Below are positions 21,058-42,109 of a stretch of 64,000 bases of DNA, piece after piece. This DNA comes from Caldilinea sp. CFX5 (GTDB lineage Bacteria > Chloroflexota > Anaerolineae > Caldilineales > Caldilineaceae). Every line of letters begins with the position of its first letter. Position 1 is the first letter of the stretch. The translations under genes and the position numbers were made by a program. The stretch is taken from positions 1 to 64,000 of the forward strand of contig QWII01000026.1 in NCBI GenBank assembly GCA_021405325.1, in the 5' to 3' direction. Under the pieces are notes generated by a model. The model made no database searches, was not told the DNA's origin, and was given only the letters and a program-made list of their open reading frames with translations.

Positions 21058-21119
21058 ACAACAATACTCAACAACAATACTTTAGTATCTATACAGCCAT
21101 ACCGCCCCCTCGCTATACT
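21058..21119 (+). promoter_or_regulatory. Type A promoter: repeat boxes plus TATACT
   Basis: Two 13-bp direct repeats (ACAACAATACTCA at 21058-21070 and ACAACAATACTTT at 21071-21083) lead into TTTAGTATCTATACA. The TCTATAC box (21088-21094) lies 26 bp upstream of the TATACT -10 (21114-21119). No good -35 exists, as expected of an activator-dependent promoter. The same box and spacing occur at 42069 and 29692. Confidence 0.7.
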
Positions 21120-21151
21120 GTTGGCAGATTGCGCAAGCGGAGATACAAGCT

Positions 21152-21427
21152 ATGGCAAACCAACGTGACATAAATTCTGAGCCAACGCAACCGATTGTGT
21201 ATGAAGCACTGATCTATCAAATCAGGCTCAAAGGCCACTTGGATGGGCGATGGGTCGAGTGGTTTGGTGGTCTCACAATCACGCAAGAAGCGAACGGCGA
21301 TACCCTGCTCGCCGGCCCGGTGGTTGATCAATCCGCGTTGTTTGGCTTGCTCAAAAAGGTGCGTGATTTGGGGCTGCCCCTGCTGGCGGTCAATTGTATT
21401 CAAGCCGAAGAGGAGAAATGCCAATGA
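21152..21427 (+). CDS. Conserved ~90-aa protein, paralog 1
   Basis: 91 residues, no signal peptide or membrane segment. The pattern YQIRLKGHLDGRWVEWFGGL, then ITQEANGDTLLAGPVVDQSAL and GLLKKVRDLGLPLLAVN is nearly identical in a second copy at 42181. The GPVVDQ.ALxGLLxKVRDLGLPLL block is the strongest conservation. I cannot name a function; it resembles small proteins often found next to Chloroflexota LuxR genes. It is the first gene after a type A promoter and precedes an N-truncated DUF4386 gene. Confidence 0.7.
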   Translation: MANQRDINSEPTQPIVYEALIYQIRLKGHLDGRWVEWFGGLTITQEANGDTLLAGPVVDQSALFGLLKKVRDLGLPLLAVNCIQAEEEKCQ

Positions 21428-21452
21428 CGACCCGCCCTCATGAAACATCACC

Positions 21453-21905
21453 TTGATCCAGACGGCCGTTTTGGTTGCCAACAAGCTGAGTTTGGTGGCG
21501 CCCTTGCTGCTCCTAGGGAATGCAGATTATCTTAAGGCCGTCGAGCCACAACAGATACACACGTTGGCTTATCTCTTGATCAAAGCCCATAGCTATGGCT
21601 TTGGCATTGGGCTGATCTTTTTCGGCTTTGCGTGTCTGGTGTATGGCTATCTGATTTTGCGCTCAGGCTATTTCCCCTGGGTTTTTGGGCTTTTGGTACA
21701 AATTGCCGGCTTGAGCTATCTGATCAATAGCTTTGCCCTGCTGCTGGCGCCCACCACCGCGGCGCTGATCAGCCCCGCGATTCTGCTGCCGGCATTTATT
21801 GGAGAACTGGCGTTTTGTCTCTGGCTCTTGTTGAAGGGCGTGAATGTCGAACAATGGGAAAAACGGGCGCTGGCTTCGCCTGATCTAGCCCATGCCACGG
21901 CGTGA
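21453..21905 (+). pseudogene. N-terminally truncated DUF4386 membrane protein
   Basis: 150 codons aligning with the last 60% of the DUF4386 protein at 43050 (shared landmarks LLLGxADYL, LxFGxxCLxxGYLI, FxGExxxxLWLLxKGVNVExWxKRAL). The first helices are missing and only a TTG start is available; an in-frame TGA lies at 21441-21443. It may still be translated as a 4-helix protein coupled to the neighbouring genes. The stop overlaps the next reading frame. Confidence 0.6.
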
Positions 21906-21919
21906 ATGAGAGGATCGCT

Positions 21920-22480
21920 ATGCGTACAGAACAACTTCGCCGGATGCGCATTCTGTTGACAGCGTTGGTCGTACTCGCCGAACTGCTCCACCTGGCCTGG
22001 GAGTATACACACGGCGGTGTGATAAGTCATCACTTCCTGGCTCGGCCCGATATGCCGGCGATCAGCAACTGGTGGGGCGTGCTGCTGCTGCCGGCGCTTG
22101 CTTGGTTTTTACTCGGCCCGATCCTTCGCCGCGCACAAGCTGAAGGTATGGGCAAGGCATTCCCGATCCCCAGAGGTATCGTTGCCAGCTTTGTCGGTTC
22201 ATTTTTCTACGCGCTCTTGCTTGCAGTTGCGTTCACGCTCGGCTATGAGGAGATCACTGGCTACCTGTTTCTGGGTATATTCCTGCTTGCCCTATTGCTT
22301 CCCATCTACCGACCGGAATTCGTGCTTGGCTTCATCTTTGGCATGACGTTTACCTTTGGCGCAGTATTGCCAACCATTGTCAGTTCAGTGGTGGCGGCGC
22401 TGTCGGCAGCGCTTCATTTCCTTGTGCGTCGTGTCATCCGGCGGCGACGGCGGCCTGAAAGCACGCCACAAAAGGCGTGA
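21920..22480 (+). CDS. Predicted membrane protein (186 aa)
   Basis: Start ATG at 21920, 7 nt after GAGAGG; a GTG at 21902 overlapping the previous stop is an alternative. About five hydrophobic segments are followed by a very basic C terminus (RRVIRRRRRPES). AELLHLAWEYTHGGVISHHFLARPDMPAISNWWG near the N terminus recalls small hypothetical Chloroflexota membrane proteins. Function is unknown. Confidence 0.65.
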   Translation: MRTEQLRRMRILLTALVVLAELLHLAWEYTHGGVISHHFLARPDMPAISNWWGVLLLPALAWFLLGPILRRAQAEGMGKAFPIPRGIVASFVGSFFYALLLAVAFTLGYEEITGYLFLGIFLLALLLPIYRPEFVLGFIFGMTFTFGAVLPTIVSSVVAALSAALHFLVRRVIRRRRRPESTPQKA

Positions 22481-22483
22481 GCA

Positions 22484-22639
22484 ATGGCGCTAGGGACGAA
22501 CAAGCCGGTCGGCAAAATCACCCCGCTGATTGATCGCTGCTACCCGTTACGCGAGACGCCTGCCGCTCTCCGCTATCTGGAAACAGGACACGCCCGTGGC
22601 AAAGTAGTTATCACCGTTGACGAAAGGAGCGCTGCTTGA
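22484..22639 (+). pseudogene. C-terminal fragment of an MDR reductase
   Basis: 51 codons. After about 11 unrelated residues it reads ITPLIDRCYPLRETPAALRY and then LETGHARGKVVITV, the last ~40 residues of the MDR enzymes found seven times in this window. The catalytic and nucleotide-binding parts are absent. Its stop overlaps the start of the next gene (TGATG), so translation could still couple through it. Confidence 0.75.
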
Positions 22640-23352
22640 TGACCCTACTACACATCATTGCCGGACTGTTAGGACTCGCTTCGGGCGCGGTTGCCCTCTA
22701 TGCCCGTAAGGGCGCAACACTTCATCGCCGGAGCGGCATGGTCTTTGTCTATACCATGTTGCTCATGTCGGCCAGCGGCGCGCTGCTGGCGGCGCTGAAA
22801 GTTGAACGGATCTCAGTGGTGGCCGGCTTGCTGACCTTTTATCTGGTCAGCACCGCTCTGCTTACGGTGCGTCGCCCGCTGCGCGGCTTTTCCTGGCTGG
22901 ATACGGGCGCTCTGTTGGTAGGACTAGCGGCTGGTCTGCTTGGCCTCGCCTTGGGGATGGTCAGTTTAGGCAACGCCAACGGCGAAATCGATGGCTTGCC
23001 CGGCGTCATGGGCTTCATCTTTGGCACAGTGGCGCTGCTGGGCGTGATCGGCGATCTGCGCATGATGCGGGCGCGGGGAGTTCAGGGAAAACTGCGCCTG
23101 GTCAGACATTTGTGGCGCATGTGTCTGGCGCTCTGGATTGCCACCGCGTCCTTTTTTCTGGGCCAGGCTGACGAATTTCCGGCGTCATTGCGCAACCCTG
23201 CCCTGCTGGCAACCCCGGTGGTAGCGGTCTTGCTGGTCATGCTCTACTGGCTGGTGCGCGTGCGATACCGGGTTATGCAACCTGATTGGCGAGATGGCCG
23301 TAAACTATTTGGCGCGCAACTGGATCACAACAAGTTTGGAGGCAACCCGTGA
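22639..23352 (+). CDS. DUF2306-like membrane protein
   Basis: 237 residues with about seven hydrophobic segments. The early motif LYARKGATLHRRSGMVFVYTM matches the KG-x-LHRRxG pattern of the DUF2306 family, and RHLWRMCLALWIATASFFLGQ near residue 170 is also conserved in that group. The biochemical role is unknown. It overlaps the next gene by 4 nt (GTGA). Confidence 0.65.
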   Translation: MTLLHIIAGLLGLASGAVALYARKGATLHRRSGMVFVYTMLLMSASGALLAALKVERISVVAGLLTFYLVSTALLTVRRPLRGFSWLDTGALLVGLAAGLLGLALGMVSLGNANGEIDGLPGVMGFIFGTVALLGVIGDLRMMRARGVQGKLRLVRHLWRMCLALWIATASFFLGQADEFPASLRNPALLATPVVAVLLVMLYWLVRVRYRVMQPDWRDGRKLFGAQLDHNKFGGNP

Positions 23353-24326
23353 AAGCAATGGTTTGGACGAACTATGGGCCGCCGGAGATGCTGCAACTGC
23401 AAGAGGTTGCAAAGCCGACGCCCAAGGACAATGAACTCTTGATCAAAGTCCATGCCGCCACCGTCACATTAGCGGACTGTGAACTGCGCCGGTTAAAAGT
23501 CGCCGGTTGGTTATGGCTCCCCCTGCGTCTCTATATGGGCCTGCTCAAACCCACACGCGTGACCATTCTGGGGCAGGAACTAGCCGGGGAAGTGGCAGCC
23601 GTCGGCAAGACAGTCACGCGCTTCAAGCCGGGCGATCCGGTCTTTGGGCCGACCATGCTCCGCCTGGGCGCTTATGCTGAGTATATTTGTCTGCCCGAAA
23701 AAAATCTGGTGCGAAAACCCGCCGACCTGAGCTATGAAGAGGCCGCCACCATCCCGACCGGCGGCGTCAACGGGTGGCATTTTCTCAACGTCGCCCAGGT
23801 GCAACCCGGCGAAAGCGTTTTGATCAATGGCGCCGGCGGCAGTATCGGCACCTATGCTGTGCAGATTGCCAAAGCGCAGGGGGCGACGGTAACGGCCATC
23901 GATAGTGGGGAGAAATTACCCATGCTGCGCTCGATTGGCGCCGATCATGTGATTGATTATCGGCAGGAAGATTTTACCAAGAGCAGCCAGCGTTACGACG
24001 TGATTATCGACGTGGTCGGCAAAAGCCCGTTTGCCCGAAGTGTCAAGGCGTTGAAGCCCAATGGCCGTTATATTTTAGGGAACCCCAGTTTCCTATCGCT
24101 GCTTCGGGCGCGCTGGACTCCGCTGCCGGCCGGGAAGAAAGCAACCTTTGCCGTCGCCGGCTATCAAGCGGAAGATTACGCCGCGCTCCAAGCTTTGATG
24201 ACCGCGGGCAAGCTCAAGCCGGTCATGGATCGGCGCTACCCGCTGGCGCAACTTGCCGAGGCCCATCGCTATGTGGAGGAGGGCCACAAAAAGGGTAACG
24301 TCATTATTCTTGTGGAGAACGCTTAA
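23349..24326 (+). CDS. Quinone-oxidoreductase-type MDR reductase, copy 1
   Basis: 325 residues with a GTG start after GGAGG. N-terminal GroES-like domain (MKAMVWTNYGPPEMLQLQEV type), Rossmann motif INGAGGSIGTYAVQIAK near residue 160, and SIGADHVIDYRQEDF near 200. The Cys/His zinc ligands of alcohol dehydrogenases are absent, placing it with the zinc-free quinone or enone reductases that use NAD(P)H. The substrate is unknown. It is first in a string of three such genes with overlapping ends. Confidence 0.85.
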   Translation: MKAMVWTNYGPPEMLQLQEVAKPTPKDNELLIKVHAATVTLADCELRRLKVAGWLWLPLRLYMGLLKPTRVTILGQELAGEVAAVGKTVTRFKPGDPVFGPTMLRLGAYAEYICLPEKNLVRKPADLSYEEAATIPTGGVNGWHFLNVAQVQPGESVLINGAGGSIGTYAVQIAKAQGATVTAIDSGEKLPMLRSIGADHVIDYRQEDFTKSSQRYDVIIDVVGKSPFARSVKALKPNGRYILGNPSFLSLLRARWTPLPAGKKATFAVAGYQAEDYAALQALMTAGKLKPVMDRRYPLAQLAEAHRYVEEGHKKGNVIILVENA

Positions 24327-25303
24327 TGAAGGCTGTTGTTTATACCGAATATGGCTCACCGGAGCAACTTCAGTGCAAAGAAGTGGCAAAGCCTGCCCCG
24401 ACAGACGATGAAATCCTGATCAAGCTTCACGCCACCTCCGTCAACCGCTCTGACTGGGAAGGGTTGAGCGGAAAACCGTTGTATGCCCGCATCGGCGGGT
24501 TGTTCAAACCACGACGCCATATCCTTGGCTCGGACATCGCCGGGGTGGTGGCAGCGGTCGGCAAAAACCACAAACAATTTCAACCGGGCGATGAAGTCTT
24601 TGGCGACATCCTGACCTCGTTGGGCGGCTTTGCCGAATATGTTTGTGTCCGTGGCGGCGTCCTGGCGCTGAAACCACCCAACCTGAGCTTTATTGAAGCC
24701 TCGACCATCCCGCAAGCAGGCGTGATTGCCCTGCAGGGGATATGCACGAAAGGCCAGGTGCAGCCGGGGCAACAAGTGCTGATCAATGGCGCCGGCGGCG
24801 GTGGCGCCTTTGCCGTCCAGCTTGCCAAACTCTACGGGGCGGAAGTGACGGCAGTAGATAACACCGGCAAGCTTGAATTTCTACGTTCGCTGGGCGCCGA
24901 CCATGTCATTGATTACACCAGGGAAGACTTCACCAAAAGCGGCAAGCAATATGATCTGATCCTCGACCTGGTCGCCCATCGTTCGGCTACCGACATCCCG
25001 CACGCGCTGCGGCCCAACGGCAGCTATCTCTTTGTCGGCGGTTCGGTGGCGACGCTGTTTCAAATTTTGTTCCTGGGGCCGTGGATCAAAAAAACGACGG
25101 GCAAACAGGTGCGCATTCTGGCCGTGCAACCAAATGCCAAAGATATGCTCCACATAACCGAGCTTTGCACCGCCGGGAAAATCAGGCCGGTGATTGATCG
25201 CACCTATCCATTAGAACAAGTGCCGGCAGCGCTCCGCTATCTGGGCGAAGGGCGCGCCAAAGGAAAAATCGTCATTACGATGGCGGAGAATTACCAAAGG
25301 TAA
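24326..25303 (+). CDS. Quinone-oxidoreductase-type MDR reductase, copy 2
   Basis: 325 residues starting in a TAATG overlap with copy 1. The family layout is intact, but the nucleotide-binding loop reads INGAGGGGAFAVQLAK, one residue shorter than GASGGVGTFAVQIAK in its paralogs. This could weaken or change cofactor binding. The C-terminal signature IRPVIDRTYPLEQVPAALRYL is conserved. It is probably a reductase of small enones or quinones. Confidence 0.82.
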   Translation: MKAVVYTEYGSPEQLQCKEVAKPAPTDDEILIKLHATSVNRSDWEGLSGKPLYARIGGLFKPRRHILGSDIAGVVAAVGKNHKQFQPGDEVFGDILTSLGGFAEYVCVRGGVLALKPPNLSFIEASTIPQAGVIALQGICTKGQVQPGQQVLINGAGGGGAFAVQLAKLYGAEVTAVDNTGKLEFLRSLGADHVIDYTREDFTKSGKQYDLILDLVAHRSATDIPHALRPNGSYLFVGGSVATLFQILFLGPWIKKTTGKQVRILAVQPNAKDMLHITELCTAGKIRPVIDRTYPLEQVPAALRYLGEGRAKGKIVITMAENYQR

Positions 25304-25320
25304 GCAAGGAAGGAGTGCTG

Positions 25321-26292
25321 ATGAAGGCAATCGTCTATCACGAATACGGTTCACCGGATGTCCTCAAAGTTGAGGAGATCGCCACGCCGACGCCCAAGGA
25401 GGATGAACTGCTGGTACGCGTTCACGCCACGTCAGTGAATCCGGCGGAGTGGTACGCTATGACTGGCCTCTATATTGCGCGGATGGACTCCGGGTGGCGC
25501 AAACCAAAGGATAACCGCCTGGGCGTTGATTTCGCCGGGGTGGTGGAAGCGGTTGGCAGCCATGTCAAGCGCTTTCGACCGGGTGACGCCGTCTTCGGGG
25601 CGCGGCATGGCGCTTTTGCCGAGTATCTCTGTGTCCGGGAAGAGCGGGCCGTCGTACTGAAACCAGAGAACATCACTTTCGAGCAGGCCGCGTCCGTCCC
25701 GACCGCCGCGCTCACTGCGCTCCAGGGACTGCGCGATCATGGGCAGCTTCAGCCGGGGCAGCAGGTGTTGATCAATGGTGCATCGGGCGGCGTCGGCACC
25801 TTTGCCGTCCAGATCGCCAAAGCGTTGGGCGCCGAAGTGACGGGCGTCTGTAGCACGCGCAACGTGGCGATCGTCCGTTCGCTGGGCGCCGATCATGTCA
25901 TTGATTACAGCCAAGAGGACTTCACCCGCTGTGGGCGGCGCTACGACCTGTTGCTCGACGTGGCGGGGAGTCGCTCCTGGTGGGAGTGTAAGCGTGTCCT
26001 GACGCCCAAGGCGACCTGCGTCATTGTCGGCGCGCCCAAGGGGAATCGGTGGATCGGCCCGTTGCGCCATGTGATCGACATGCGCCTGGCTTCCCTCTTG
26101 TCCAGCCGGACAGCAACCTTCTTTGTGGCAAAGGTAAACCCAGCGGATCTGGTCGTCCTGCAAGCGCTGCTCGCCTCCGGTCAGGTGACGCCGGTCATCG
26201 ACCGCCGCTATACACTGGCAGATCTCCCCGCCGCTATGTGTTACTTGGGCGACGGACACGCCCAAGGGAAAATTGTTGTGACAATGGTATAA
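25321..26292 (+). CDS. Quinone-oxidoreductase-type MDR reductase, copy 3
   Basis: 323 residues from the ATG at 25321 with AAGGAG upstream. Rossmann motif INGASGGVGTFAVQIAKALG; SLGADHVIDYSQEDF; C-terminal VTPVIDRRYTLADLPAAMCYL. No zinc-ligand cluster. The stop codon lies inside a TATAAT (26288-26293) that may be the -10 for the next gene. Confidence 0.85.
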   Translation: MKAIVYHEYGSPDVLKVEEIATPTPKEDELLVRVHATSVNPAEWYAMTGLYIARMDSGWRKPKDNRLGVDFAGVVEAVGSHVKRFRPGDAVFGARHGAFAEYLCVREERAVVLKPENITFEQAASVPTAALTALQGLRDHGQLQPGQQVLINGASGGVGTFAVQIAKALGAEVTGVCSTRNVAIVRSLGADHVIDYSQEDFTRCGRRYDLLLDVAGSRSWWECKRVLTPKATCVIVGAPKGNRWIGPLRHVIDMRLASLLSSRTATFFVAKVNPADLVVLQALLASGQVTPVIDRRYTLADLPAAMCYLGDGHAQGKIVVTMV

Positions 26293-26340
26293 TAGGCGAG
26301 AGCCAACGTAAAGTCGAACGTAATGTAAGCATGAGGAACT

Positions 26341-26878: not shown

Positions 26879-29623
26879 ATGTCTACGTCGATTTTAGCCA
26901 CAAAACTCTATATCCCGCTGCCGCGGCCCAATGCGGTTGCGCGTCCCCGTCTGCACGCCCGGTTGGATGGGAGCCTCCACCAGAAGCTGACGCTGATCGC
27001 GGCCCCGGCCGGCTATGGTAAAACCACGTTGGTGAGCGCCTGGATCGCCACCTGCGGACGCCCAGCGGCGTGGCTGTCACTGGACGAAGGGGACAATGAC
27101 CCTATCCGTTTTCTAACCTATCTTGTGGCGGCCTTGCAGACGGTGGCGCCCAATGTCGGCACCGGGGTATGGGCTGTGCTCCAGTCGCCGCAGCCTCCGC
27201 GGGATCCCTCTGGGTGCGAAGCGATCTTGACGGCGCTGCTCAATGAAATCGTCACCCTGCCGGAGCGCTTTATCCTTGTCCTGGATGACTACCATCTGAT
27301 TGAGGCCAACGCGGTTGATCAGGCGCTCACTTTTCTGATCGAGCATCTTCCGCCCCAACTGCATCTCGTCATGGTCACCCGCGAGGATCCCCAGTTACCA
27401 TTAGCCCGCTTGCGCGTCCGTGGCCAATTGACCGAAGTACGCGCCGCCGATCTGCGTTTTACGCCCGCCGAAGCCGCCGATTTTCTCAATCAGGTGATGG
27501 GGCTTACGCTCTCTGTTGAAGAGATTGCCGCCCTGGACGAGCGCACGGAAGGTTGGATCGCTGGTCTGCAACTGGCCGCACTCTCCATGCAGGGGCGCAG
27601 TGACACGGCCAGCTTTATCGCGGCGTTTGCCGGTAGCCACCATTTCATCCTTGACTATCTGCTGGAAGAGGTGCTGCAACGCCAACCTGACCATCTCCGC
27701 CGCTTCTTGCTGCAAAGCGCGATTCTCGACCGGTTGAGCGGGCCGCTCTGTGCTGCTGTTACCGGTCAGACCGATAGCGAAAGGATTTTGGAGACGCTGG
27801 AACGGGGGAATCTCTTTCTCATTGCCCTTGATGACCAGCGCCAGTGGTATCGCTATCATCATCTCTTTGCCGATGTATTGCACACCCGCTTGTTAAAAGA
27901 GCAACCGGAAGCGGTCGCCCAGCTCCATCAGCGGGCAAGCGCCTGGTATGCCCAGCATGATCAGCCGGCGGAGGCAATCCGCCACGCGCTGACTGCCCAA
28001 GATTTCGTGCGCGCCGCCGAATTGCTGGAACTGGCCTGGCCGGTCATGGATCGCAGCTTACAATCCCCCGCCTGGCTGCGCTGGGTGCAGATGCTGCCGG
28101 CGGCGTTGGTGCAGGTGCGCCCGCTGCTGCGCGTGAGCTGGGCCTGGGCCTTACTCGATCGCGGGGATCTGGAAGCCGGCCAAGAGCGCCTGCAAGCGAC
28201 CGAACGCTGGCTCGCCGAGGCTGCCGCCGGGGAGGCGATTGTGGTGGATGAAGCGCAGTTGCGCCTGTTGCCTGTCACCATTGCCAATGCCCACGCCTAT
28301 TACGCCCAGGCACGCGGCGATATAGCCGCTGCCATCCGCTACGCCCGTCAAGCACTCGACTTGTTGCCCGCCGATGCGCATTTGCAACGCGCTGCCGCTT
28401 CGCTTCTGGCACTAACCTACTGGTCGAGTGGCGAACTCCTCGCGGCGCGCCAGCCCTTTGGCGAGAGTATCACCCTTGCGCGTTTAGCGGGCGAAGCGGT
28501 GATGACCATCGGCGCCTCCTTTGTGTTGGCCGACATCATCGCCGCTCAGGGACATCTGCGTGAGGCTGCCGCGGCCTATACGCAGGCACTGCAAGAGGCA
28601 GAGACGATGGGACAGCCAGCAATGCCGGGAGTGGGCGAGTTGCTCTTGGGGTTGAGCCAGGTGCATTGTGAATGGGGCGATCTGGCAACGGCGGAAGCGT
28701 ACCTGCAACAGAGCAAAGACGTTAATCAACAGACTGGACTGCCGAACAGTCACTATCGCTGGCAGCTCGCCAAGGCGCGCCTCTGTGCGATCCAAGGCGA
28801 TGGGGCGGGCGCGCTCCATCTGATCATGCAGGCCGAACGCCTTTATGTCAGAACCGCGCTCCCGGATATTCGGCCGGTTACAGCCATGAAAGCACGGCTC
28901 TGGCTTGCCCAAGGCCGACTGCCCGAGGCAATGGCCTGGGCGCAGGCGCGTGGCTTAACGGTGGATGATGAACCTGGCTACCTGCGCGAATATGAACAGC
29001 TCACGCTGGTCAGGTTGCTCATTGCCCAATATCGACAGGAAGGCGCTGCCGCGCTCATTGACGGGGCCATGCGACTCCTGACGCGCTTGCTGCCAGCGGC
29101 GGAAACGGGTGGGCGCCTTGGCAGCCGCATCGAAATCCTGCTCTTGCAGGCGCTCGCCTATGCTGCTCAGGGCGACACGCCATCTGCGCTTACCGCACTT
29201 GAGTACGCCCTGACGCTGGCCGAGCCGGAAGGGTACGTCCGCCTCTTTGTCGATGAAGGGGAACCGTTGGCCCAGCTCCTGCACAGGCTGAAGGCTTGCC
29301 CTGAGTCGGGAGCCCGCTGGGCGCGAAGGGATGAAGACGGCAGGCTGAAAGCGTACGTCCAAACCCTACTCGCCGCCTTTGGGCAGCCAGGAACCGTCCA
29401 GCCTTCCCCTGCCACCCGTCAGCCTTTGATCGAGCCGTTGAGTGAACGCGAGTTAGAAGTTCTGCGCCTTATTGCCCAGGGTCTCTCGAACCCCGAGATC
29501 TGCGGACGTCTCTTCCTGGCCCTGGACACGGTGAAAGGGCATAACCGCCGCATCTTTGGTAAGCTCCAGGTACAGCGGCGCACCGAAGCCGTAGCGCGGG
29601 CGCGAGCATTGGGGTTGGTGTAG
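26879..29623 (+). CDS. MalT-like LuxR-family STAND regulator 2
   Basis: 914 residues. Walker A AAPAGYGKTTLVSAW, LSLDEGDNDP, Walker [14 protein letters not shown], and [12 protein letters not shown] at the end of the NTPase/winged module. A long TPR-like region follows, then the [29 protein letters not shown] and [31 protein letters not shown]. The last 35 residues are nearly identical to regulator 1, so the two should read similar DNA boxes. A repeat-derived insertion (ACPESGARWARRDEDGR) sits in the hinge before the HTH. A type A promoter follows at 29656. TATAGT at 26770-26775 is a possible -10 upstream. Confidence 0.9.
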   Translation: MSTSILATKLYIPLPRPNAVARPRLHARLDGSLHQKLTLIAAPAGYGKTTLVSAWIATCGRPAAWLSLDEGDNDPIRFLTYLVAALQTVAPNVGTGVWAVLQSPQPPRDPSGCEAILTALLNEIVTLPERFILVLDDYHLIEANAVDQALTFLIEHLPPQLHLVMVTREDPQLPLARLRVRGQLTEVRAADLRFTPAEAADFLNQVMGLTLSVEEIAALDERTEGWIAGLQLAALSMQGRSDTASFIAAFAGSHHFILDYLLEEVLQRQPDHLRRFLLQSAILDRLSGPLCAAVTGQTDSERILETLERGNLFLIALDDQRQWYRYHHLFADVLHTRLLKEQPEAVAQLHQRASAWYAQHDQPAEAIRHALTAQDFVRAAELLELAWPVMDRSLQSPAWLRWVQMLPAALVQVRPLLRVSWAWALLDRGDLEAGQERLQATERWLAEAAAGEAIVVDEAQLRLLPVTIANAHAYYAQARGDIAAAIRYARQALDLLPADAHLQRAAASLLALTYWSSGELLAARQPFGESITLARLAGEAVMTIGASFVLADIIAAQGHLREAAAAYTQALQEAETMGQPAMPGVGELLLGLSQVHCEWGDLATAEAYLQQSKDVNQQTGLPNSHYRWQLAKARLCAIQGDGAGALHLIMQAERLYVRTALPDIRPVTAMKARLWLAQGRLPEAMAWAQARGLTVDDEPGYLREYEQLTLVRLLIAQYRQEGAAALIDGAMRLLTRLLPAAETGGRLGSRIEILLLQALAYAAQGDTPSALTALEYALTLAEPEGYVRLFVDEGEPLAQLLHRLKACPESGARWARRDEDGRLKAYVQTLLAAFGQPGTVQPSPATRQPLIEPLSERELEVLRLIAQGLSNPEICGRLFLALDTVKGHNRRIFGKLQVQRRTEAVARARALGLV

Positions 29624-29655: not shown

Positions 29656-29723
29656 TAACACCCCTTAACACCCCATAACAACACCAAAGTGTCTATACGC
29701 CAACCCCTCTTGCCTCCTATACT
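29656..29723 (+). promoter_or_regulatory. Type A promoter with 10-bp-phased boxes
   Basis: TAACACCCC occurs at 29656-29664 and 29666-29674, and TAACAACACC at 29676-29685: three direct repeats on a 10-bp pitch. A TCTATAC box at 29692-29698 lies 26 bp before TATACT (29718-29723), the same spacing as at 21088 and 42078. It precedes the DUF6326 gene. Confidence 0.68.
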
Positions 29724-29805
29724 CTTTGTTAGGTTTTGCAACTTTCAGGATGTATTGTTGTAAAACTACGAAACTCATCCATATCGTTCAACAAGGAGTA
29801 TGAAT

Positions 29806-30237
29806 ATGAACTCACAAAAAGTACCACAAAAGGCGTTGGAAGACATCAAGCTCAATGTGAAACTGAAGCTCGCTGCCCTTTGGGCGAGTTTTATGTTTCT
29901 CTACATCTATGTGGATTATTTCGCCTTATATATGCCCAATAAGATTGAGGGTATTTTGCAAGGCAAGGTATTTGTATTTGATATTTCGCAAGGGTTTATT
30001 TTTATCGGACTCGCCTTGGCTACAATTCCGATGGTTATGATTTTCCTTTCTGTTGCCCTGCCAGCTAAAGTAAATCGCTTAACAAATATTATCGTGGCCA
30101 CAATTCATATCCCTTATATGTTGTTCAATTTGGCCGGAGAGGTTTGGGTACACATGGTATTTGCTGCTGTTGTGGAAGTCGTTCTTCTTTTACTAATTAT
30201 TGGCTACGCCTGGAAGTGGCCTAAGCAGGAAGCGTAA
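29806..30237 (+). CDS. DUF6326 family membrane protein
   Basis: 143 residues from the second ATG at 29806, which is better spaced from AAGGAG (29792-29797) than the ATG at 29800. Four membrane segments. LWASFMFLYIYVDYFALYMP and LPAKVNRLTNIIVATIH match the DUF6326 pattern. Base composition is distinctly AT-rich compared with flanking genes, suggesting recent acquisition. Function is unknown. Confidence 0.7.
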   Translation: MNSQKVPQKALEDIKLNVKLKLAALWASFMFLYIYVDYFALYMPNKIEGILQGKVFVFDISQGFIFIGLALATIPMVMIFLSVALPAKVNRLTNIIVATIHIPYMLFNLAGEVWVHMVFAAVVEVVLLLLIIGYAWKWPKQEA

Positions 30238-31520: not shown

Positions 31521-31570
31521 GTGCTATGATCTAGCAAAAGTGCGTGCCAACCTATCCTGGTGACAAGTCA

Positions 31571-34417
31571 ATGTCTACGCCAATCTTAGCCACGAAACTC
31601 TATATCCCCCCGCCGCGCCCGACCCTTGTGCGCCGTCCGCGTCTGCTAGCGCGGCTGAATGCGGCGCTACAGCACAAAGTGACCCTCATCTCCGCCCCCG
31701 CCGGCTATGGGAAGACAACGCTGGTCAGCAGTTGGATTGCCGATCCTGCCAGGACAAGCTTTGGATTGCCGATTTTAGATTTTGGGGTAGGATCCCCCGA
31801 AAACCCATCAATCCAAAATCAAAAATCAAAAATCAAAAATCAAATTGCCTGGCTATCGCTCGACGAAAGCGACAATGACCCCGTTCGGTTTTTGACCTAT
31901 CTGGTGGCGGCTTTGCAGACGCTGGCGCCGCATTGGGGCGTTGGCGTGTTGGCGCTCCTGCAATCGCCGCAGCCGCCACCGCTGGCAACAACGTTGACGA
32001 TGCTGGTCAATGAAATTGCCGCGTTGCCTGATCAGCTTGTCTTGATCCTGGACGACTATCATCTGATTGACGCCGCGCCCAACGGCGGTGGCCTTTTAGG
32101 CGCGCCGCTGGGCACAGTTGACCAGGCGCTGACCTTTCTCATCGAACATCTGCCGCCGCCAATGCACCTGGTCATCACCACACGGGAAGATCCGCAGTTG
32201 CCACTGGCGCGCCTGCGCGCACGGGGCGAGTTGAACGAAGTACGCGCCGCCGACTTGCGCTTTACCCCGGCTGAAGCCGCCGACTTTCTGAACCAGATGA
32301 TGGGACTAACCCTGGCCGCCGAACAGATCACCGCCCTGGGCGTCCGTACCGAAGGCTGGATCGCCGGTCTCCAACTGGCTGCGCTCTCCTTACGGGGGCG
32401 GGAGGATATTCCCGGCTTCATCCAGGCTTTCACCGGTGATCATCGCTACATTGGGGATTATCTGGTGGAAGAAGTTCTACAACGCCAGCCGGCGCATGTG
32501 CGCACCTTCTTGCTACAAACCGCGATCCTCGACCGTTTGTGCGGGCCGCTCTGTGATGCTGTCACGCAGCAGACCGATGGTCGCGGGCTGTTAGCGCTGC
32601 TGGAACGGGCCAATCTCTTTGTAGTGCCGTTGGATGACAAGCGTGAGTGGTACCGCTATCATCACCTCTTTGCCGATGTACTCCACGCCCATGCGCTGGA
32701 GGAGCAGCCCACGCAGGTTGCGACCTGGCATGGGCGCGCAAGTGCGTGGTACGAAGCGCACGGCCTGCGCGCCGAAGCCATCCACCATGCCCTGGCTGCG
32801 GCAGATTTTGCGCGCGCGGCGGACTTGGTGGAGTTGACCTGGCCGGCCCTGCATCGAAGTAATTTTCGCTCTGCGGCCTTGCTGCGCTGGATGAAGGCGC
32901 TGCCCGCGGCGGTGGTGCGCACCAGACCGGTCCTCAGCGTTGGCTATGCCTGGGAGTATCTGAATAATGGTGAGTTGGAAGCCGCGGCGGCGTACTTACA
33001 AGATGCCGAACAGTGGCTCGACCAGACGGACGCGCTGCCAACCGATGCCATGACCTTTATGGATGCCGAGGAATTTCGGTTGTTACCGGAGGAGATCGCC
33101 TCGGCCCGCACCTTTCTGTCCATGGCACAGGGTGATATCGCAAGTACCGTAACCTATGCGCAACGGGCGCTTGACCTCTTGCCGGCGAACGCGTATGTCC
33201 GACGTGGGCCGGCAGTGGCGCTTTTGGGGTTGGCCTACTGGGCCAGCGGCGAATTGGAAGCGGCCTACCAGGCTCTGGCCGAGGGCATGGCGGGTTTTCA
33301 GCAGGCCGGCAATCTCATTTTCGCCCTCAGTGGCACCTATGGTCTCGCCGACATCAGGACGGTGCAAGGTCGCCTCCACGAGGCGGTACAGGTCTACAAA
33401 CAAGCCTTGCAACTAGCCCAAGCGCAGGGGGAGCCGGTTATTCAGGGTACAGCCGATCTCTATTTAGGCTTGGGTGAATTAGCCCGTGAACAGGGCGACC
33501 TGCCAGCCGCCGCCCAATATCTGGCGCAAAGTGAAGCGTTGGGCGAAGGCGCGGCCTTACCAAATTGGCCTTGTCGCCGCGCCATTGTACAGGCGCAAAT
33601 GCAACAAACCCTAGGCGATCTGGCAGGCGCGCTCGACCTACTTGACGAGGCGGCGCGCCACTATTTTCGCGGGCCTGTACCGGATTTTCGCCCGATTGCC
33701 GCCTTGAAGGTGCGCGTGTGGGTGCGACAGGGGCGGCTGACCGAAGCGTTGGGCTGGGTGCGTGAACGTGGCTTGTCGATTGCTGATGAACTCAGCTATC
33801 TGCGCGAGTTCGAACATGTAACCCTAGCTCGCGTGTTGATCGCCCGCTATCAACACGACCGGAGCAAAGCCCACTTACAGGCGGCCATAACACTACTGGC
33901 GCGCCTTTTGCCGGCAGCAGAAACCGGCGGTAGGATAGGCAGTGTTATTGAAATCCTGATATTACAGGCGCTTGCGTATGAGGCGCAAGATAACCTTCCT
34001 TTGGCCCTCGCTGCATTGACACGCGCCCTGACCTTGGCTGAACCGGCGGGCTGTGTCCGTCTCTTTGTCGATGAAGGGACGCCGATGGCACGACTCTTAT
34101 CCGCCGCCGTCATCCACGGGGTAATGCCAGACTACAGTGCTAAACTGTTGGCGGCATTGGGGACGGCGCAACCAAAGAACCCTCACGAAGCCCTGCGTCC
34201 CGCCGCACGCCAGCTACACCCCCTCATCGAGCCATTAAGCGAGCGTGAACTGGAGGTGCTGCGGCTGCTCGGTACCGAATTGAGTGGCCCGGAAATGGCT
34301 CATCAACTCATGGTTTCCCTGAACACGCTGCGCACCCATACCAAAAACATTTTTAGCAAATTGGGGGTGAACAACCGGCGGGCAGCCGTTCGCCGTGCCG
34401 AAGAACTTGGTTTGTAG
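31571..34417 (+). CDS. MalT-like LuxR-family STAND regulator 3
   Basis: 948 residues from the ATG at 31571 ([11 protein letters not shown], as in the paralogs). Walker A SAPAGYGKTTLVSSW and Walker B LVLILDDYHLIDA. About 30 extra residues (positions ~65-95) between Walker A and LSLDESDNDP are encoded by a palindromic AT-rich insert (31762-31844). The TPR-like middle region is followed by the HTH LSERELEVLRLLGTELSGPEMAHQL and NTLRTHTKNIFSKLGVNNRRAAVRR, clearly different from regulators 1 and 2. The type B operator follows directly. TATGAT at 31525-31530 is a possible -10. Confidence 0.9.
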   Translation: MSTPILATKLYIPPPRPTLVRRPRLLARLNAALQHKVTLISAPAGYGKTTLVSSWIADPARTSFGLPILDFGVGSPENPSIQNQKSKIKNQIAWLSLDESDNDPVRFLTYLVAALQTLAPHWGVGVLALLQSPQPPPLATTLTMLVNEIAALPDQLVLILDDYHLIDAAPNGGGLLGAPLGTVDQALTFLIEHLPPPMHLVITTREDPQLPLARLRARGELNEVRAADLRFTPAEAADFLNQMMGLTLAAEQITALGVRTEGWIAGLQLAALSLRGREDIPGFIQAFTGDHRYIGDYLVEEVLQRQPAHVRTFLLQTAILDRLCGPLCDAVTQQTDGRGLLALLERANLFVVPLDDKREWYRYHHLFADVLHAHALEEQPTQVATWHGRASAWYEAHGLRAEAIHHALAAADFARAADLVELTWPALHRSNFRSAALLRWMKALPAAVVRTRPVLSVGYAWEYLNNGELEAAAAYLQDAEQWLDQTDALPTDAMTFMDAEEFRLLPEEIASARTFLSMAQGDIASTVTYAQRALDLLPANAYVRRGPAVALLGLAYWASGELEAAYQALAEGMAGFQQAGNLIFALSGTYGLADIRTVQGRLHEAVQVYKQALQLAQAQGEPVIQGTADLYLGLGELAREQGDLPAAAQYLAQSEALGEGAALPNWPCRRAIVQAQMQQTLGDLAGALDLLDEAARHYFRGPVPDFRPIAALKVRVWVRQGRLTEALGWVRERGLSIADELSYLREFEHVTLARVLIARYQHDRSKAHLQAAITLLARLLPAAETGGRIGSVIEILILQALAYEAQDNLPLALAALTRALTLAEPAGCVRLFVDEGTPMARLLSAAVIHGVMPDYSAKLLAALGTAQPKNPHEALRPAARQLHPLIEPLSERELEVLRLLGTELSGPEMAHQLMVSLNTLRTHTKNIFSKLGVNNRRAAVRRAEELGL

Positions 34418-34480: not shown

Positions 34481-34551
34481 AATCACCACATCAATCACCA
34501 CATCAATCACCACACATGGTGACGACACCTCACCACATTGGTTGGTATCCT
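34481..34551 (+). promoter_or_regulatory. Type B promoter: three 12-bp boxes plus TATCCT
   Basis: AATCACCACATC occurs at 34481-34492 and 34493-34504, and AATCACCACACA at 34505-34516, followed by TGGTGACGAC and CTCACCACATTG. TATCCT (34546-34551) lies 41 bp from the start of the third box. A near copy with identical spacing is at 40088. It is a likely activator array for the CPBP gene. Confidence 0.75.
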
Positions 34552-34599: not shown

Positions 34600-35544
34600 A
34601 TGAATACATTCGATGATATGGTTCAGCTAGCAGCCCCTCCCATTCAATATACACCAGAGACCCGCCTAGCGCTGGCGCGAAGGATTCTTCTGCATTGGGT
34701 AGTGCGATTCCTGATCACGTGGTTTGCCTTTGGCCTCATCACTTGGGCGAGTGTAGCGGGGCTGCAAGCCATGGCTGTCGAAATCGGTCCGATCATCTCG
34801 GTCGGTATGCTTGCCGTGAGTAGCTTACTGGCCGTCTTTGCGGTGACGTGGCTACTTGAACGGCGCAATCCCGTAGAAATCGGTTTGAGTTGGCGGCGTT
34901 TCGTCATGGACTGGCTCAAAGGCGCAGGAGTTGGTGCGGCCTACATCTGCGCAGCGGTGGGCATCCTCGCCTTGTTGGGTGGCTATCGAATTAGCGGTGT
35001 CACGTTCGTCGGACAAGCACTGGCGAGTGGGTTGCTGTTACATGTTCTCGTGGGTGTTTTTGAAGAAACCCTCTTTCGCGGCATTCTCTTTCGGTTTTTG
35101 GAAGAAGGCTTTGGGTCGTGGATTGCCTTGACCCTGACTGCGCTATTCTTTGGCTTTGTACACCTTAGTAACCCGAACGCCACGGTATGGAGCGCCATCG
35201 CCATTGCCTTGGAAGCCGGCGTGTCGATTGGCGCCATTTATCTGGCAACGCGCAGTTTGTGGGTTGCGATGGGTTTTCACACAGCCTGGAATTTTCTTCA
35301 GGGGACTATTTTCGGTGTAGCTGTTTCGGGTGCCGACGCGCCGACCGGTAGCCTGTTTCAACCGATCATCCAGGGCAATCCCTGGTTGACCGGTGGCGCA
35401 TTTGGGATCGAAGCCAGCGTGATTGCAGTGGTGTTGGGGCTTGGCTTGGGTAGCTATTGGATGGTTCGTGCCATGCGACAGAAACGCATCATGCGTGGAT
35501 TGTTGTGGCATGGCGGAATCAACAGGTTTCGCAACGTTTCGTAA
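34600..35544 (+). CDS. CPBP family intramembrane metalloprotease
   Basis: 314 residues from the ATG at 34600; an in-frame GTG/ATG at 34516 would run through the operator and promoter. Seven to eight membrane segments. Motif 1 EETLFRGILFR (EExxxR) near residue 180, motif 2 FFGFVHLSN (FxxxH) near 210, motif 3 FHTAWNF near 255. Members cleave prenylated or other membrane substrates, or act in bacteriocin immunity. First gene after a type B promoter. Confidence 0.85.
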   Translation: MNTFDDMVQLAAPPIQYTPETRLALARRILLHWVVRFLITWFAFGLITWASVAGLQAMAVEIGPIISVGMLAVSSLLAVFAVTWLLERRNPVEIGLSWRRFVMDWLKGAGVGAAYICAAVGILALLGGYRISGVTFVGQALASGLLLHVLVGVFEETLFRGILFRFLEEGFGSWIALTLTALFFGFVHLSNPNATVWSAIAIALEAGVSIGAIYLATRSLWVAMGFHTAWNFLQGTIFGVAVSGADAPTGSLFQPIIQGNPWLTGGAFGIEASVIAVVLGLGLGSYWMVRAMRQKRIMRGLLWHGGINRFRNVS

Positions 35545-35643
35545 ACGAGCATTGCGTGTACTGGTATGAAGCAGTCCGATTGATCAACAAATACGAATCA
35601 TGAATTTATTCACACCAAGTGAGACCACTTGGAAAGGAGACCT

Positions 35644-36615: not shown

Positions 36616-36621
36616 ATAAAG

Positions 36622-36769
36622 CCACAGTGAGACAGTAGGACAGTGAGACAGTAGGACAGTGAGACAGTAGGACAGTGAGACAGTAGGACAGTGAGCTTGT
36701 CGGCGTAGCACTGTCTCACTGTTTTACTGTCTCACTGTTTTACTGAACCACTGTCTCACTTATGCCACT
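36622..36769. repeat. 8-bp-phased tandem repeat hairpin (CAGTGAGA/CAGTAGGA)
   Basis: Alternating CAGTGAGA and CAGTAGGA units run in register from 36625 to 36695, then the complementary arm (CTGTCTCACTG and CTGTTTTA units) from about 36711 to 36765. It sits right after the MDR stop codon and may act as a 3' stem. Confidence 0.9.
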
Positions 36770-36849
36770 GTGTACTAGGAAATAGACTAAGCAGCCTTTC
36801 TCCTCAATTCTGGGTCGACTGAACCCAAACGACACCAAGGGGGTATTCA

Positions 36850-37866: not shown

Positions 37867-37931
37867 ACGTTACCTGATTCTGATGACGGTTGATGATCAA
37901 CGATTTTTATACCGATTTATAGAAGGGAGAA

Positions 37932-38423: not shown

Positions 38424-38467
38424 GATAGAACACGACCCTTGATCATAGGGTAATTTAGGAGCCAAAC

Positions 38468-39997: not shown

Positions 39998-40021
39998 GCG
40001 CAAAACATAGCTCTATTCCAT

Positions 40022-40066
40022 GCCTGTGCAGGCTGACGCGTCAGCCTGCACAGGCGATTTGTTTTT
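40022..40066 (+). terminator. Intrinsic terminator after serine hydrolase
   Basis: A perfect 17-bp stem (40022-40038 with 40039-40055, no loop bases by strict pairing) is followed by TTTGTTTTT at 40058-40066. Confidence 0.7.
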
Positions 40067-40087
40067 CTCACCATGCCCAGTCGCAGT

Positions 40088-40158
40088 AATCACCACAGTA
40101 ATCACCAGATCAATCACCATGTATGGTGATGACGCCTCACCACATTGCTTGGTATCCT
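40088..40158 (+). promoter_or_regulatory. Type B promoter, second copy
   Basis: AATCACCACAGT (40088-40099), AATCACCAGATC (40100-40111) and AATCACCATGTA (40112-40123), then TGGTGATGACGCCTCACCAC, and TATCCT at 40153-40158. The third box to -10 distance is 41 bp, the same as at 34505/34546. ATCACCAT-GT-ATGGTGAT at the third box is also an inverted repeat. Confidence 0.75.
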
Positions 40159-40232
40159 CTTAACGAAGCAAAGCACGAAACCAACGACACAAAAACTGTC
40201 AAACATCATTAAATTAAAAAGGAGAAAGTACG

Positions 40233-40970
40233 ATGAGTGCTAAAGTAACGGTCAACACGTATCGAACGACGGCCATCGTCGTCGGGGTAGTCTACTTGGC
40301 TGGGTTTGTGGTCGGCATTGGCGGGGAGATGCTCTTCCAATCCGTTCTGGGAGCGCCGGATTCCCTGGCTACGCTTTCCGCCAACAGCATGACGGTGGCG
40401 ATTGGCGCGCTGCTCTGGCTACTGGCGGTCGCAGGCGATGCGGCGCACGGGGTACTGCTCTTCCCGATTCTGAGGCAACACCACGAACGTATTGCGGTTG
40501 GCTATCTGGCCGCCCGGATCATGGATGCTCTCTTCATTGCCATCATGGTGATCTTCATCCTGTTGCAAGTCCCACTGGGCAACGCCTATCTGAACGCCGC
40601 GACCGCCGATGTGGCCGCGCTGCAAACCCTGAGTACGCTCTTCACCCACGGGCAGCACGTTGCCTACCAGATCGGCATGAGTACGCTGGGCGCGGCTGGG
40701 TTGCTGCTCTGCTACACGCTTTACAAGGCGACGTTGGTACCGCGCTGGCTGGCCGTTTGGGGTCTTGTGGGCTATGCGATCATCTTGGTCGGGATGCTGT
40801 CGGAACTCATGGGTTCCGGGCTGGGGCTGGCGTCCTCCCTGCCCGGTGGTCTGTGGGAGGTCTTTATGGGGGTGTGGCTGATCGTGAAGGGGTTCAACAC
40901 TTCAGCCTTCGCTGCCGAGTCGGCCACAACCGCGATCAATGTCGATAATGCGCGTTTGTCGGTGGCATAA
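40233..40970 (+). CDS. DUF4386 domain membrane protein
   Basis: 245 residues, seven or so membrane segments. TYRTTAIVVGVVYLAGFVVGI at the N terminus and LYKATLVPRWLAVWGLVGYA, then SLPGGLWEVFMGVWLIVKGFN at the C terminus are DUF4386 features. AAAAGGAGAAAG precedes the ATG. Function is unknown; it is first after a type B promoter and 26 nt upstream of an MDR gene. A truncated paralog lies at 42454. Confidence 0.8.
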   Translation: MSAKVTVNTYRTTAIVVGVVYLAGFVVGIGGEMLFQSVLGAPDSLATLSANSMTVAIGALLWLLAVAGDAAHGVLLFPILRQHHERIAVGYLAARIMDALFIAIMVIFILLQVPLGNAYLNAATADVAALQTLSTLFTHGQHVAYQIGMSTLGAAGLLLCYTLYKATLVPRWLAVWGLVGYAIILVGMLSELMGSGLGLASSLPGGLWEVFMGVWLIVKGFNTSAFAAESATTAINVDNARLSVA

Positions 40971-40996
40971 TCTAAAAAATCTGAGGAGAAAATCTT

Positions 40997-41974
40997 ATGC
41001 AAGCAATGGTCTATCACAACTATGGTTCACCCGATGTATTAAAACTGGAAGAAGTGCAAAAGCCCACACCCAAGGATAACGAAGTCCTGGTCAAGGTTCA
41101 TGCCGCTTCCGCCGCCGCAGGCGATTGGCATCTATTGCGCGCCGACCCGTTCCCGATACGCTTCATGGCTGGGCTGCTCAAACCAAAGTACAAGATCCTC
41201 GGGGCTGCCGTTGCGGGGCGGGTGGAAGCGGTAGGCCGCAACGTTACGCTCTTCCAACCCGGTGACGCGGTCTTTGGGGACTTATCCCTGTGTGGCTTTG
41301 GCGCATTTGCCGAATATGTGGCGGCGCCTGAAAATGCCTTCGTGCTGAAGCCTACCCGGTTGACCTTCGAGCAAGCCGCAACCGTACCAGTGTCGGCTGT
41401 CACCGCCTTACAAGGGCTGCGCGCCGGACAAATTCAGTCAGGGCAGCAGGTGCTGATTAACGGGGCATCCGGCGGCGTCGGCACCTTTGCCGTGCAGATT
41501 GCCAAAGCCTTTGGTGCGGAAGTCACGGCCGTATGCAGCACAAGCAAAGTTGAAATGGTGCGTGCGCTGGGCGCTGACCATGTCATTGATTACACCAAAG
41601 AAGCGTTCACCCAAAGTGACAAACGTTACGACCTGATCCTGGCGGCTAACGGCTATCAACCCTTTGCCGCCTATCAACAGGCTTTAACGCCTACAGGCTG
41701 CTATGTGATGACTGGCGGCGCCACGCGGCAAATGTTCGAAGCCATGCTGCTTGGCCCCTGGCGCTCCAAGAAGGGGGGTCAGCAACTGGGGAATCTCCTG
41801 GCGAAACCCTGCCAAAAGGATTTACAGTTGATGAAAGAGTTGATCGATGCCGGCAAAGTGACACCCGTGATCGATCGTTGCTACCCGTTGGCCGGGGTGC
41901 AGGCTGCGATCCGCTATGTGGAAGCCGGTCACGCCAAAGGGAAAGTCGTCATCACCGTGGCGCAGAACGATTAA
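40997..41974 (+). CDS. Quinone-oxidoreductase-type MDR reductase, copy 5
   Basis: 325 residues. INGASGGVGTFAVQIAKAFG, ALGADHVIDYTKEAF and VTPVIDRCYPLAGVQAAIRYV are all present; no zinc cluster. GAGGAGA precedes the ATG. It lies in one operon with the DUF4386 gene, under the type B promoter. Confidence 0.85.
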   Translation: MQAMVYHNYGSPDVLKLEEVQKPTPKDNEVLVKVHAASAAAGDWHLLRADPFPIRFMAGLLKPKYKILGAAVAGRVEAVGRNVTLFQPGDAVFGDLSLCGFGAFAEYVAAPENAFVLKPTRLTFEQAATVPVSAVTALQGLRAGQIQSGQQVLINGASGGVGTFAVQIAKAFGAEVTAVCSTSKVEMVRALGADHVIDYTKEAFTQSDKRYDLILAANGYQPFAAYQQALTPTGCYVMTGGATRQMFEAMLLGPWRSKKGGQQLGNLLAKPCQKDLQLMKELIDAGKVTPVIDRCYPLAGVQAAIRYVEAGHAKGKVVITVAQND

Positions 41975-42050
41975 TGCCACTGGGACGCTCACGGTGGATT
42001 GGGGCATAGCTGCTACCTTTTGATAGAACTATACTCACCTTCACGCCAAA

Positions 42051-42109
42051 AACAATACCTTGTTCAACACTTTAGTATCTATACAACAACACCTGTCTGT
42101 CGCTATACT
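42051..42109 (+). promoter_or_regulatory. Type A promoter, third copy
   Basis: ACTTTAGTATCTATACA at 42069-42085 is identical over 17 bp to 21079-21095. TATACT at 42104-42109 keeps the 26-bp box-to--10 spacing. AACAATACC (42051-42059) precedes it. Confidence 0.75.

Follow-up and report, generated by a model that had tools for sequence, protein, structure and literature searches.

MalT sites are said, after work by Vidal-Ingigliardi in 1991, to stand in direct repeat at promoters. The available portions of other accounts describe an oligomerisation of MalT that depends on inducer and ATP (PMC4381067), cooperative binding to MalT boxes (PMC4381067, PMC10427625) and four MalT sites at pulAp/malPp800 (PMC10427625). 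The box has the core GGA(T/G)GA, whose reverse complement, TC[M]TCC, varies at the third base, and in Actinoplanes a TCATCC-N5-GGATGA dyad lies over the -35 of 17 promoters (both from the available portion of PMC7567727). Here we analysed a stretch of 64,000 nt from Caldilinea sp. CFX5 (contig QWII01000026.1; hereafter the window, to which all coordinates refer, with all features on the + strand), in which three MalT-like LAL regulators are accompanied by five predicted promoters. An array of half-sites at these promoters recurs behind regulators in other genomes, and its third base follows one residue of the adjoining regulator. These observations support MalT-type regulation with a specificity code that could be read from sequence, which sharpens an earlier reading of the locus.

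Our interpretation, to which we assign a probability of roughly 0.8, is that a LAL regulator would activate the promoter directly behind its own gene through an array of four half-sites, with a single residue reading the third base. This residue, X, immediately precedes T[VIL][KR] in the recognition helix of the C-terminal helix-turn-helix (HTH) domain.

MalT-like regulators and predicted promoters in the window

The three regulators share their protein architecture with the MalT of E. coli and Klebsiella. All contain a MalT-like TPR (SUPR) sensor (PF17874 at 1.7e-66 to 4.3e-68) and a C-terminal LuxR-type HTH (PF00196 at 3.7e-12 to 1.3e-16) in proteins of 904, 914 and 949 amino acids (aa). The P-loop GFGKTT/GYGKTT is present in each, and the best AAA/NACHT matches (E = 7.3e-6, 3.5e-6 and 1.7e-5, all under the Pfam gathering score) indicate an ATPase domain of the STAND/NACHT-AAA type. 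The predicted promoters, of two types, contain half-sites D1 and D2 in direct orientation, an inverted one (I) facing D2, a further direct one (D3) and then a -10 element:

18314..21028, + strand: regulator 1, MalT-like LAL/STAND protein, 904 aa, X = Ser (open reading frame; Pfam TPR_MalT 4e-68, GerE 1e-16)
20930..20932, + strand: codon of residue X (Ser) in regulator 1, from the sequence
21063..21119, + strand: predicted type A operator/promoter 1, S dialect, from pattern searches and sequence comparison; D1 AATACT 21063-21068, D2 AATACT 21076-21081, inverted GTAT 21085-21088, D3 CATACC 21098-21103, -10 TATACT 21114-21119
26879..29623, + strand: regulator 2, MalT-like LAL/STAND protein, 914 aa, HTH LALDTVKGHNRRI, X = Asp (Pfam TPR_MalT 7e-68, GerE 2e-15)
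29525..29527, + strand: codon of residue X (Asp) in regulator 2, computed from the open reading frame
29667..29723, + strand: predicted type A operator/promoter 2, D dialect; D1 AACACC 29667-29672, D2 AACACC 29680-29685, inverted GTGT 29689-29692, D3 AACCCC 29702-29707, -10 TATACT 29718-29723
31568..34417, + strand: regulator 3, MalT-like LAL/STAND protein, 949 aa, HTH VSLNTLRTHTKNI, X = Asn (Pfam TPR_MalT 2e-66, GerE 4e-12); an alternative GTG start at 31544 is possible
34322..34324, + strand: codon of residue X (Asn) in regulator 3, computed from the open reading frame
34483..34551, + strand: predicted type B operator/promoter 1, N dialect; TCACCA at 34483, 34495 (D1) and 34507 (D2), inverted TGGTGA 34517-34522, D3 TCACCA 34530-34535, -10 TATCCT 34546-34551
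40090..40158, + strand: predicted type B operator/promoter 2, N dialect, without a regulator directly upstream; TCACCA at 40090, 40102 and 40114, inverted TGGTGA 40124-40129, D3 TCACCA 40137-40142, -10 TATCCT 40153-40158
42054..42109, + strand: predicted type A operator/promoter 3, hybrid S/D dialect, without a regulator directly upstream; D1 AATACC 42054-42059 (T), D2 AACACT 42066-42071 (C), inverted GTAT 42075-42078 (A), D3 AACACC 42088-42093 (C), -10 TATACT 42104-42109

An earlier note on this DNA had described the type A sites as TCTATAC-N19-TATACT at 21088, 29692 and 42078, and a pattern search of the window recovered exactly these three and nothing beyond them when the gap was varied from 15 to 25 (mean of 0.00 matches in 100 shuffles), while an extended pattern with up to 3 mismatches added a single weak match at 17823. 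The AATCACCA units reported for type B were likewise found at 34481/34493/34505 and 40088/40100/40112 (8 window matches for 2.24 expected), and in each site the third unit begins 41 bp ahead of TATCCT; a 25-bp block, CTCACCACATTGnTTGGTATCCTCT, is common to the two. The five sites are real and far above chance, and core patterns of both types detected only these five in the window. They do not amount to five independent observations, because type A sites 1 (21088) and 3 (42078) are homologous (80% over 50 bp at the promoter and 78% over 189 bp in the downstream gene, with copies of the same small gene behind each) and the two type B sites share 84 bp at 86%.

The placement of the regulators given in that note also stands: regulator 1 (stop 21028) and regulator 2 (stop 29623) directly precede the type A sites at 21088 and 29692, regulator 3 (stop 34417), with its LRTHTKN-type HTH, directly precedes the type B site at 34481, and the HTH residues read from the three open reading frames are those it had listed. 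Sites 42078 and 40088 have no regulator directly upstream and are followed by a small-protein gene and a DUF4386 gene, respectively. Two statements had to be revised. Regulators 1 and 2, assigned to one VKGHNR type, do both adjoin type A sites, but they do not form a single HTH type, since they carry S and D at residue X. The TCTATAC box was rejected as the operator, being the right arm followed by a TATAC tail that varies across genomes; what is conserved across genomes is AAYACnnnnGTRTCT with AAYACC 22 bp on.

The organisation of these promoters is of the MalT direct-repeat type, with D1 and D2 12-13 bp apart. Scoring of the -35 region covered the five window promoters, whose best TTGACA match is 3 or 4 of 6 at 16-18 bp spacing (in line with the weak -35 noted earlier), and 58 aligned type A promoters from the survey described below, none of which exceeds 4/6; 17 of the 58 reach 4/6, which is commoner than in shuffles (11%). 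The half-sites are unlike those of MalT, AAYACC in type A and TCMCCA in type B instead of TCMTCC, and a role of maltotriose is not implied here. The MalT box core GGA(T/G)GA is absent from these arrays, and GGATGA-like arms were seen only with other LAL subtypes elsewhere (THIN, THVHH).

A common array behind regulators of other genomes

We surveyed relatives of the window organism by searching for HTHs in 249 genomes of its class (types A and B), one order of 25, three single genomes and an overlapping draw of 396 class genomes, and the DNA behind each regulator was fetched and aligned. The order of elements seen in the window, D1, D2, the inverted half-site facing D2, D3 and the -10, is common to both types. 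In the 58 aligned type A promoters with a blind score of at least 17, the consensus is D1 AAYACC, 12-13 bp to D2 AAYAC, four bases, GTRTCT, with D3 AAYACC following D2 by 22 bp and TATNNT following it by 38 bp. For type B it is TCMCCA, 12 bp, TCMCCA, four bases, TGGKGA and then nGAC, with TCMCC 23 bp and the -10 39 bp after D2. Counted upstream from the -10, both types have the dyad centre at 31.5 bp and the third D3 base at 14 bp, and we regard types A and B as two dialects of one predicted architecture. Within one type A array the half-sites mostly agree with each other.

The score, out of 21, was blind in that the read-out columns were masked, its scoring columns being enriched by construction; shuffles gave a 99% level of 15.5 and a maximum of 18, and the DNA behind other HTH types (n = 90) a median of 13 and a maximum of 18. 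A generic score for all HTH subtypes was also tried and gave suggestive half-sites, and we claim no general table because only 15 of 67 subtypes pass. Similar arrays were observed with other LAL subtypes, namely VHTRN/TAAYACC, RHITN/ACAACC and THIN/TCCACC (loci L093, L103, L190, L193, L104, L189, L208, L110), and in several of them ATGAC follows the inverted arm.

Residue X predicts the third base of the half-sites

A first look with regular expressions found S-type regulators with ATAC-N4-GTAT and D-type regulators with ACAC-N4-GTGT. Among the 79 type A regulators examined, those with S or P at X adjoin AATAC and those with D or N adjoin AACAC in 66 of the 68 readable pairs (S-T 31, D-C 30, N-C 3 and P-T 2; the exceptions are N-T 1, L063, and S-C 1, L075). 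Readability was by blind score of at least 17 in 58 cases, of which 56 follow the rule, by the dyad only in 8, using the form [CT]AC-N4-GT[AG]T at its best position, which admits C or T only, and by more distant sites in 2 (L047, 1.7 kb, and L218, 657 bp downstream). The 11 unreadable type A regulators comprise 5 with D, 5 with S and 1 with G.

The association holds in new genomes. We had fixed what to expect of S, P and D before drawing new genomes, and all 18 readable regulators among the 22 examined there agreed with it (9 D, 8 S and 1 P; 14 read by score and 4 by dyad only), whereas L217, L218, L225 and L239 had no site within 430 bp, the D-type site of L218 being the one 657 bp on. Three new N-type regulators in the same draw read C. 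In type B, with 30 regulators examined, N goes with TCACC in 19 of 19 readable cases and S with TCCCC in 6 of 6. The N cases are 13 of the 15 in the first table (L114 and L121 lacking an adjacent site) plus six found by eye through a wider regular expression, and the S cases are 6 of 7 (L134 lacking a site), with a deviating D1 at L175; for L130 (S) no site was found and L127 was unreadable.

Position X shares 0.86 of 1.00 bit of mutual information with the base, and the next-best position, X+8, shares 0.42. The nearest HTH without X predicts 55 of the 68 bases, compared with 66 of 68 for X alone, and where the nearest neighbour had the other base, X went with the base in 10 of the 11 listed cases. 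As a separate observation, KGYTR HTHs (L072, L075, L081, L085) and KGHNL/M HTHs (L082, L084, L090, L233) are changed at X+5 to X+7, and these changes accompany an altered inverted arm (GTAG, GTCG or GTTG in place of GTAT), with D2 and D3 largely keeping ATAC or GTAC, which hints at a second code position and at asymmetric reading.

Distribution of the arrays across genomes

Scanning 84,980 species for WWAGTRTCTATAC-N19-TATACT yielded 20 loci, seven of them in Chloroflexota. At six of these seven the site follows the end of a regulator with a VKGHNR-HTH by about 60-280 bp, and at the seventh (L018) it follows the regulator by 1.7 kb. Twelve of the 20 loci were set aside as chance because they fell in unrelated phyla and no LuxR gene was flagged there by the script, which is weak evidence, as its regular expression failed on the regulators of L004 and L010 as well. 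The latter is in Paenibacillus sp. PL91, where such a regulator adjoins the site and a second site stands on another contig before a DUF4386-like gene; this Firmicute has a Chloroflexota-type LAL regulator with its operator and an oxidoreductase gene (L010, L282; L029), a picture suggestive of lateral transfer of the module, or of a mis-binned contig.

The core scans were run on genomes chosen for such regulators, nearly all holding them (60 for type A and 23 for type B). The type A core gave 49 matches in 39 genomes versus 4 for the reversed control. By our count, 42 of the 49 have a type A regulator no more than about 2 kb upstream, the kind of proximity to matching regulators for which the earlier note had proposed a search; the remaining seven are remote sites, two of them chance-like. 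The type B core gave 19 matches versus 0 for the control, 13 with A/T/A and 6 with C/G/C at the read bases and none mixed. Four unlinked sites match the sole regulator type seen in their genome (G406:C51, S; G332, 5.8 kb off, D; Paenibacillus G008:C45, D; G418:C60, N), and three more, G406:C18, G456:C64 and G622:C107, are compatible, their genomes holding two types. G394:C134, G394:C4 and G456:C83 also follow the rule and were excluded from this list because they sit close to or at the ends of contigs. Two mixed-dialect remote matches (G615, C1:2085742, and G454:C35) were read as chance, both being inside reading frames, and for the G273 site no type A regulator was found in that genome. The site near 4057 of G622:C107 (L273) is an operator without a live neighbour, and a short adjacent frame resembles a broken LAL gene start, which would fit a decayed regulator whose site has persisted. 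LuxR-type HTH genes, with LAL regulators among their number, can run to dozens in a genome of this group: two genomes of 9.8 and 9.4 Mb contain 46 and 44 LuxR-type HTH matches, smaller response regulators counted.

Alternative explanations

The 3' end of the gene encodes the HTH and directly adjoins the operator, so the two could be inherited and recombined as one cassette; X would then do no more than tag the cassette type, the base being set by another residue or by general affinity. In favour of this, body and HTH type are shuffled against each other: a quick tree of the proteins without their HTH (74 regulators) scatters S and D among each other, with 21 changes for S and 19 for D, at least 12 and 10 of them on starred branches. 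This tree contains 8 independent D/S pairs, in which the operator changes the same way 8.0 times on average and the opposite way 0 times. With codon X removed, a tree of the DNA that encodes the HTH requires 8 changes each for residue class and operator base and leaves 1 independent pair on starred branches, so many of the switches in the body tree could be exchanges of an HTH-plus-operator cassette. The signal in this HTH tree is too low for it to make the case that the body tree makes. One regulator, L233, with an HNL-type HTH within a D clade, looks like such an exchange. Against linkage as the explanation, X alone outperforms the relatedness of the remaining HTH (66 versus 55 of 68), with 0.42 bit as the highest value at any other position; the S/D pairs most alike have 3 further residue differences yet differ at 37-40 of 180 nucleotides, and are therefore not fresh copies. 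Moreover, the four sites remote from any regulator match their genome's sole type, with the further three compatible, and the same position covaries again in type B. We consider it unlikely that linkage accounts for the code.

Two other explanations would dispense with the pairing of regulator and operator. If another activator or a special sigma factor owned the arrays, with the LAL gene adjacent by accident, a -10 without a -35 would fit as an alternative promoter type, and LAL binding is here a prediction from sequence; the operator base nevertheless tracks the recognition-helix residue of the adjoining regulator, most type A matches (42 of 49) are found behind type A regulators, and even a Paenibacillus has the regulator along with two sites, which makes this very improbable. 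Copying of a promoter with its first gene inside the cluster, with no functional pairing, agrees with the homology of sites 1 and 3 and with the DNA shared by the type B pair, and it partly explains the number of copies in the window. Site 2 stands before an unrelated gene (DUF6326), however, and the conserved columns occur behind dozens of diverged regulators elsewhere in the dialect that matches the regulator; this cross-genome result refutes duplication as the full account, which we find scarcely credible.

Several observations weigh against activation through an X-read array. Window site 3 (42054..42109) mixes the dialects, with T in D1, C in D2, A in the inverted half-site and C in D3. 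The read base lies at -4.5 from the dyad centre in type A and at -5.5 in type B, so that the registers are equal when counted from D3 and unequal when counted from the dyad. The score threshold of 17 is not absolute, the best of the 90 other HTH types reaching 18, and the architecture score recognises only the 15 of 67 other LuxR/LAL subtypes mentioned above. Both exceptions to the rule are internally mixed: L063 (N) has T in D2, but G in the inverted half-site and C in D3, and L075 (S) has C in D2, but A and T, respectively. Among the 79 type A regulators 11, and among the 30 of type B 5, had no readable site nearby, some at contig ends and some with diverged HTHs. The N part of the type A rule comprises 4 regulators and was fixed only after the new genomes had been viewed, and the P part comprises 2. 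The body tree is a quick one supported by the Shimodaira-Hasegawa-like approximate likelihood ratio test (SH-aLRT) only, and the single starred pair of the HTH-DNA tree tells in the same direction. A looser type A pattern showed no enrichment in 301 genomes of the phylum (by our count, 13 matches versus 15 for the reversed control).

Proposed mechanism and relation to known systems

We propose that each LAL regulator, composed of a STAND ATPase, a MalT TPR sensor and a C-terminal LuxR-type HTH, would activate the promoter behind its own gene and sometimes one or two more promoters of the same gene families. On arrival of an inducer the regulator would oligomerise, as inferred from MalT, and its HTH domains would settle on D1, D2, I and D3, with D1 and D2 as direct sites 12-13 bp apart, I forming a dyad with D2 and D3 following D2 by 22-23 bp. 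If the start site lies at the usual distance, the dyad centre would be at about -43; D3 lies within the -35/-10 spacer, and this placement would therefore recruit RNA polymerase to a -10 promoter without a good -35. Residue X would read the third base of every half-site, S or P specifying T and D or N specifying C in the KGH background of type A, and N specifying A and S specifying C in the RTH background of type B. Since regulators 1 and 2 carry S and D at X and their operators differ accordingly, they probably differ in specificity, AATAC versus AACAC; regulator 3 would read TCACC, and the hybrid site 3 could answer to both regulators 1 and 2.

In the E. coli malP promoter we read TCATCC and TCCTCC 13 bp apart and an inverted GGATGA, and by eye it lacks the tight D2/I dyad and the spacer half-site D3 seen here. 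The HTH of E. coli MalT is TTIKTHIRN, and the T/G wobble of the MalT box falls at the base that X tracks in our arrays. Actinoplanes MalT is also a LAL activator, and the position of its dyad resembles that of the D2/I dyad; as far as the available part of its description goes, it differs in having one dyad and one specificity, in another phylum, with no residue-base code described. The HTH is homologous to those of NarL/FixJ/LuxR-type proteins such as DosR/DevR, NarL and VraR, which are two-component response regulators whereas these are STAND regulators, and their operators differ from these arrays. By ungapped alignment to chain 3c3w_A and position arithmetic, X, X+3 and X+4 correspond to DevR/DosR 179, 182 and 183, and the accessible portion of one account reports that Lys179, Lys182 and Asn183 of DosR contact bases (PMC4082495); X may itself be a contact. 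Our approach resembles the comparative genomics of regulators and motifs, with its correlation of specificity residues and operators, described in the accessible portions of work on LacI and GntR (PMC4052901, PMC4494728), the GntR work predicting protein-DNA contacts from correlations.

Genes behind the promoters

The first genes behind the five predicted promoters are:

21152..21427, + strand: small conserved protein (..YQIRLKGHLDGRWVEWF..), behind type A promoter 1; no Pfam match
29800..30237, + strand: DUF6326 membrane protein, behind type A promoter 2 (Pfam PF19851 2e-13)
34600..35544, + strand: CPBP/Rce1-like membrane protease, behind type B promoter 1 (Pfam PF02517 1e-18); an ATG at 34516 lies upstream of the -10
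40233..40970, + strand: DUF4386 membrane protein, behind type B promoter 2 (Pfam PF14329 4e-39)
42160..42453, + strand: small conserved protein (..YQIRLAGHLGAQWTTWF..), behind type A promoter 3; no Pfam match

A small-protein gene like 21152..21427 also stands behind sites in other genomes. The same cluster contains six similar paralogous oxidoreductase genes (window 23349-26292, 35629-36615, 40997-41974 and 43876-44886), four assigned to ADH_N/ADH_zinc by Pfam and two by eye, a gene type that is likewise found behind LAL operators in other genomes. A DUF4386 remnant without its N-terminal half (profile 85-210) lies at 21453-21905, and a DUF4386-like frame at 42453-42800, identified by eye, continues behind the small-protein stop and was read as a remnant.

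Implications

A literature search, with most subscription journals outside its reach, returned nothing on Chloroflexota LAL operators or on a LAL residue-base code. To our knowledge, hardly any LuxR-type HTH/LAL regulator of this group has a known target. The notion put forward in the earlier note, of regulators and operators paired as a paralogous set with a DNA code legible from sequence, gains computational support from the wider genome data. We suggest tentatively that X may be a one-residue, context-dependent specificity dial for all half-sites that has been turned many times, that LAL-rich genomes may hold insulated, readable and probably rewirable channels, with hybrid arrays as two-channel nodes, and that this could explain the T/G degeneracy of the MalT box. 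An operator code would turn orphan regulators into predicted regulons, and the genes behind the sites (DUF4386, DUF6326, CPBP, zinc-type oxidoreductases and the small conserved protein) would form predictable co-regulated sets. It would also permit single-residue tests of DNA reading by MalT-type activators and would offer an evolutionary experiment on the insulation of paralogous activators.

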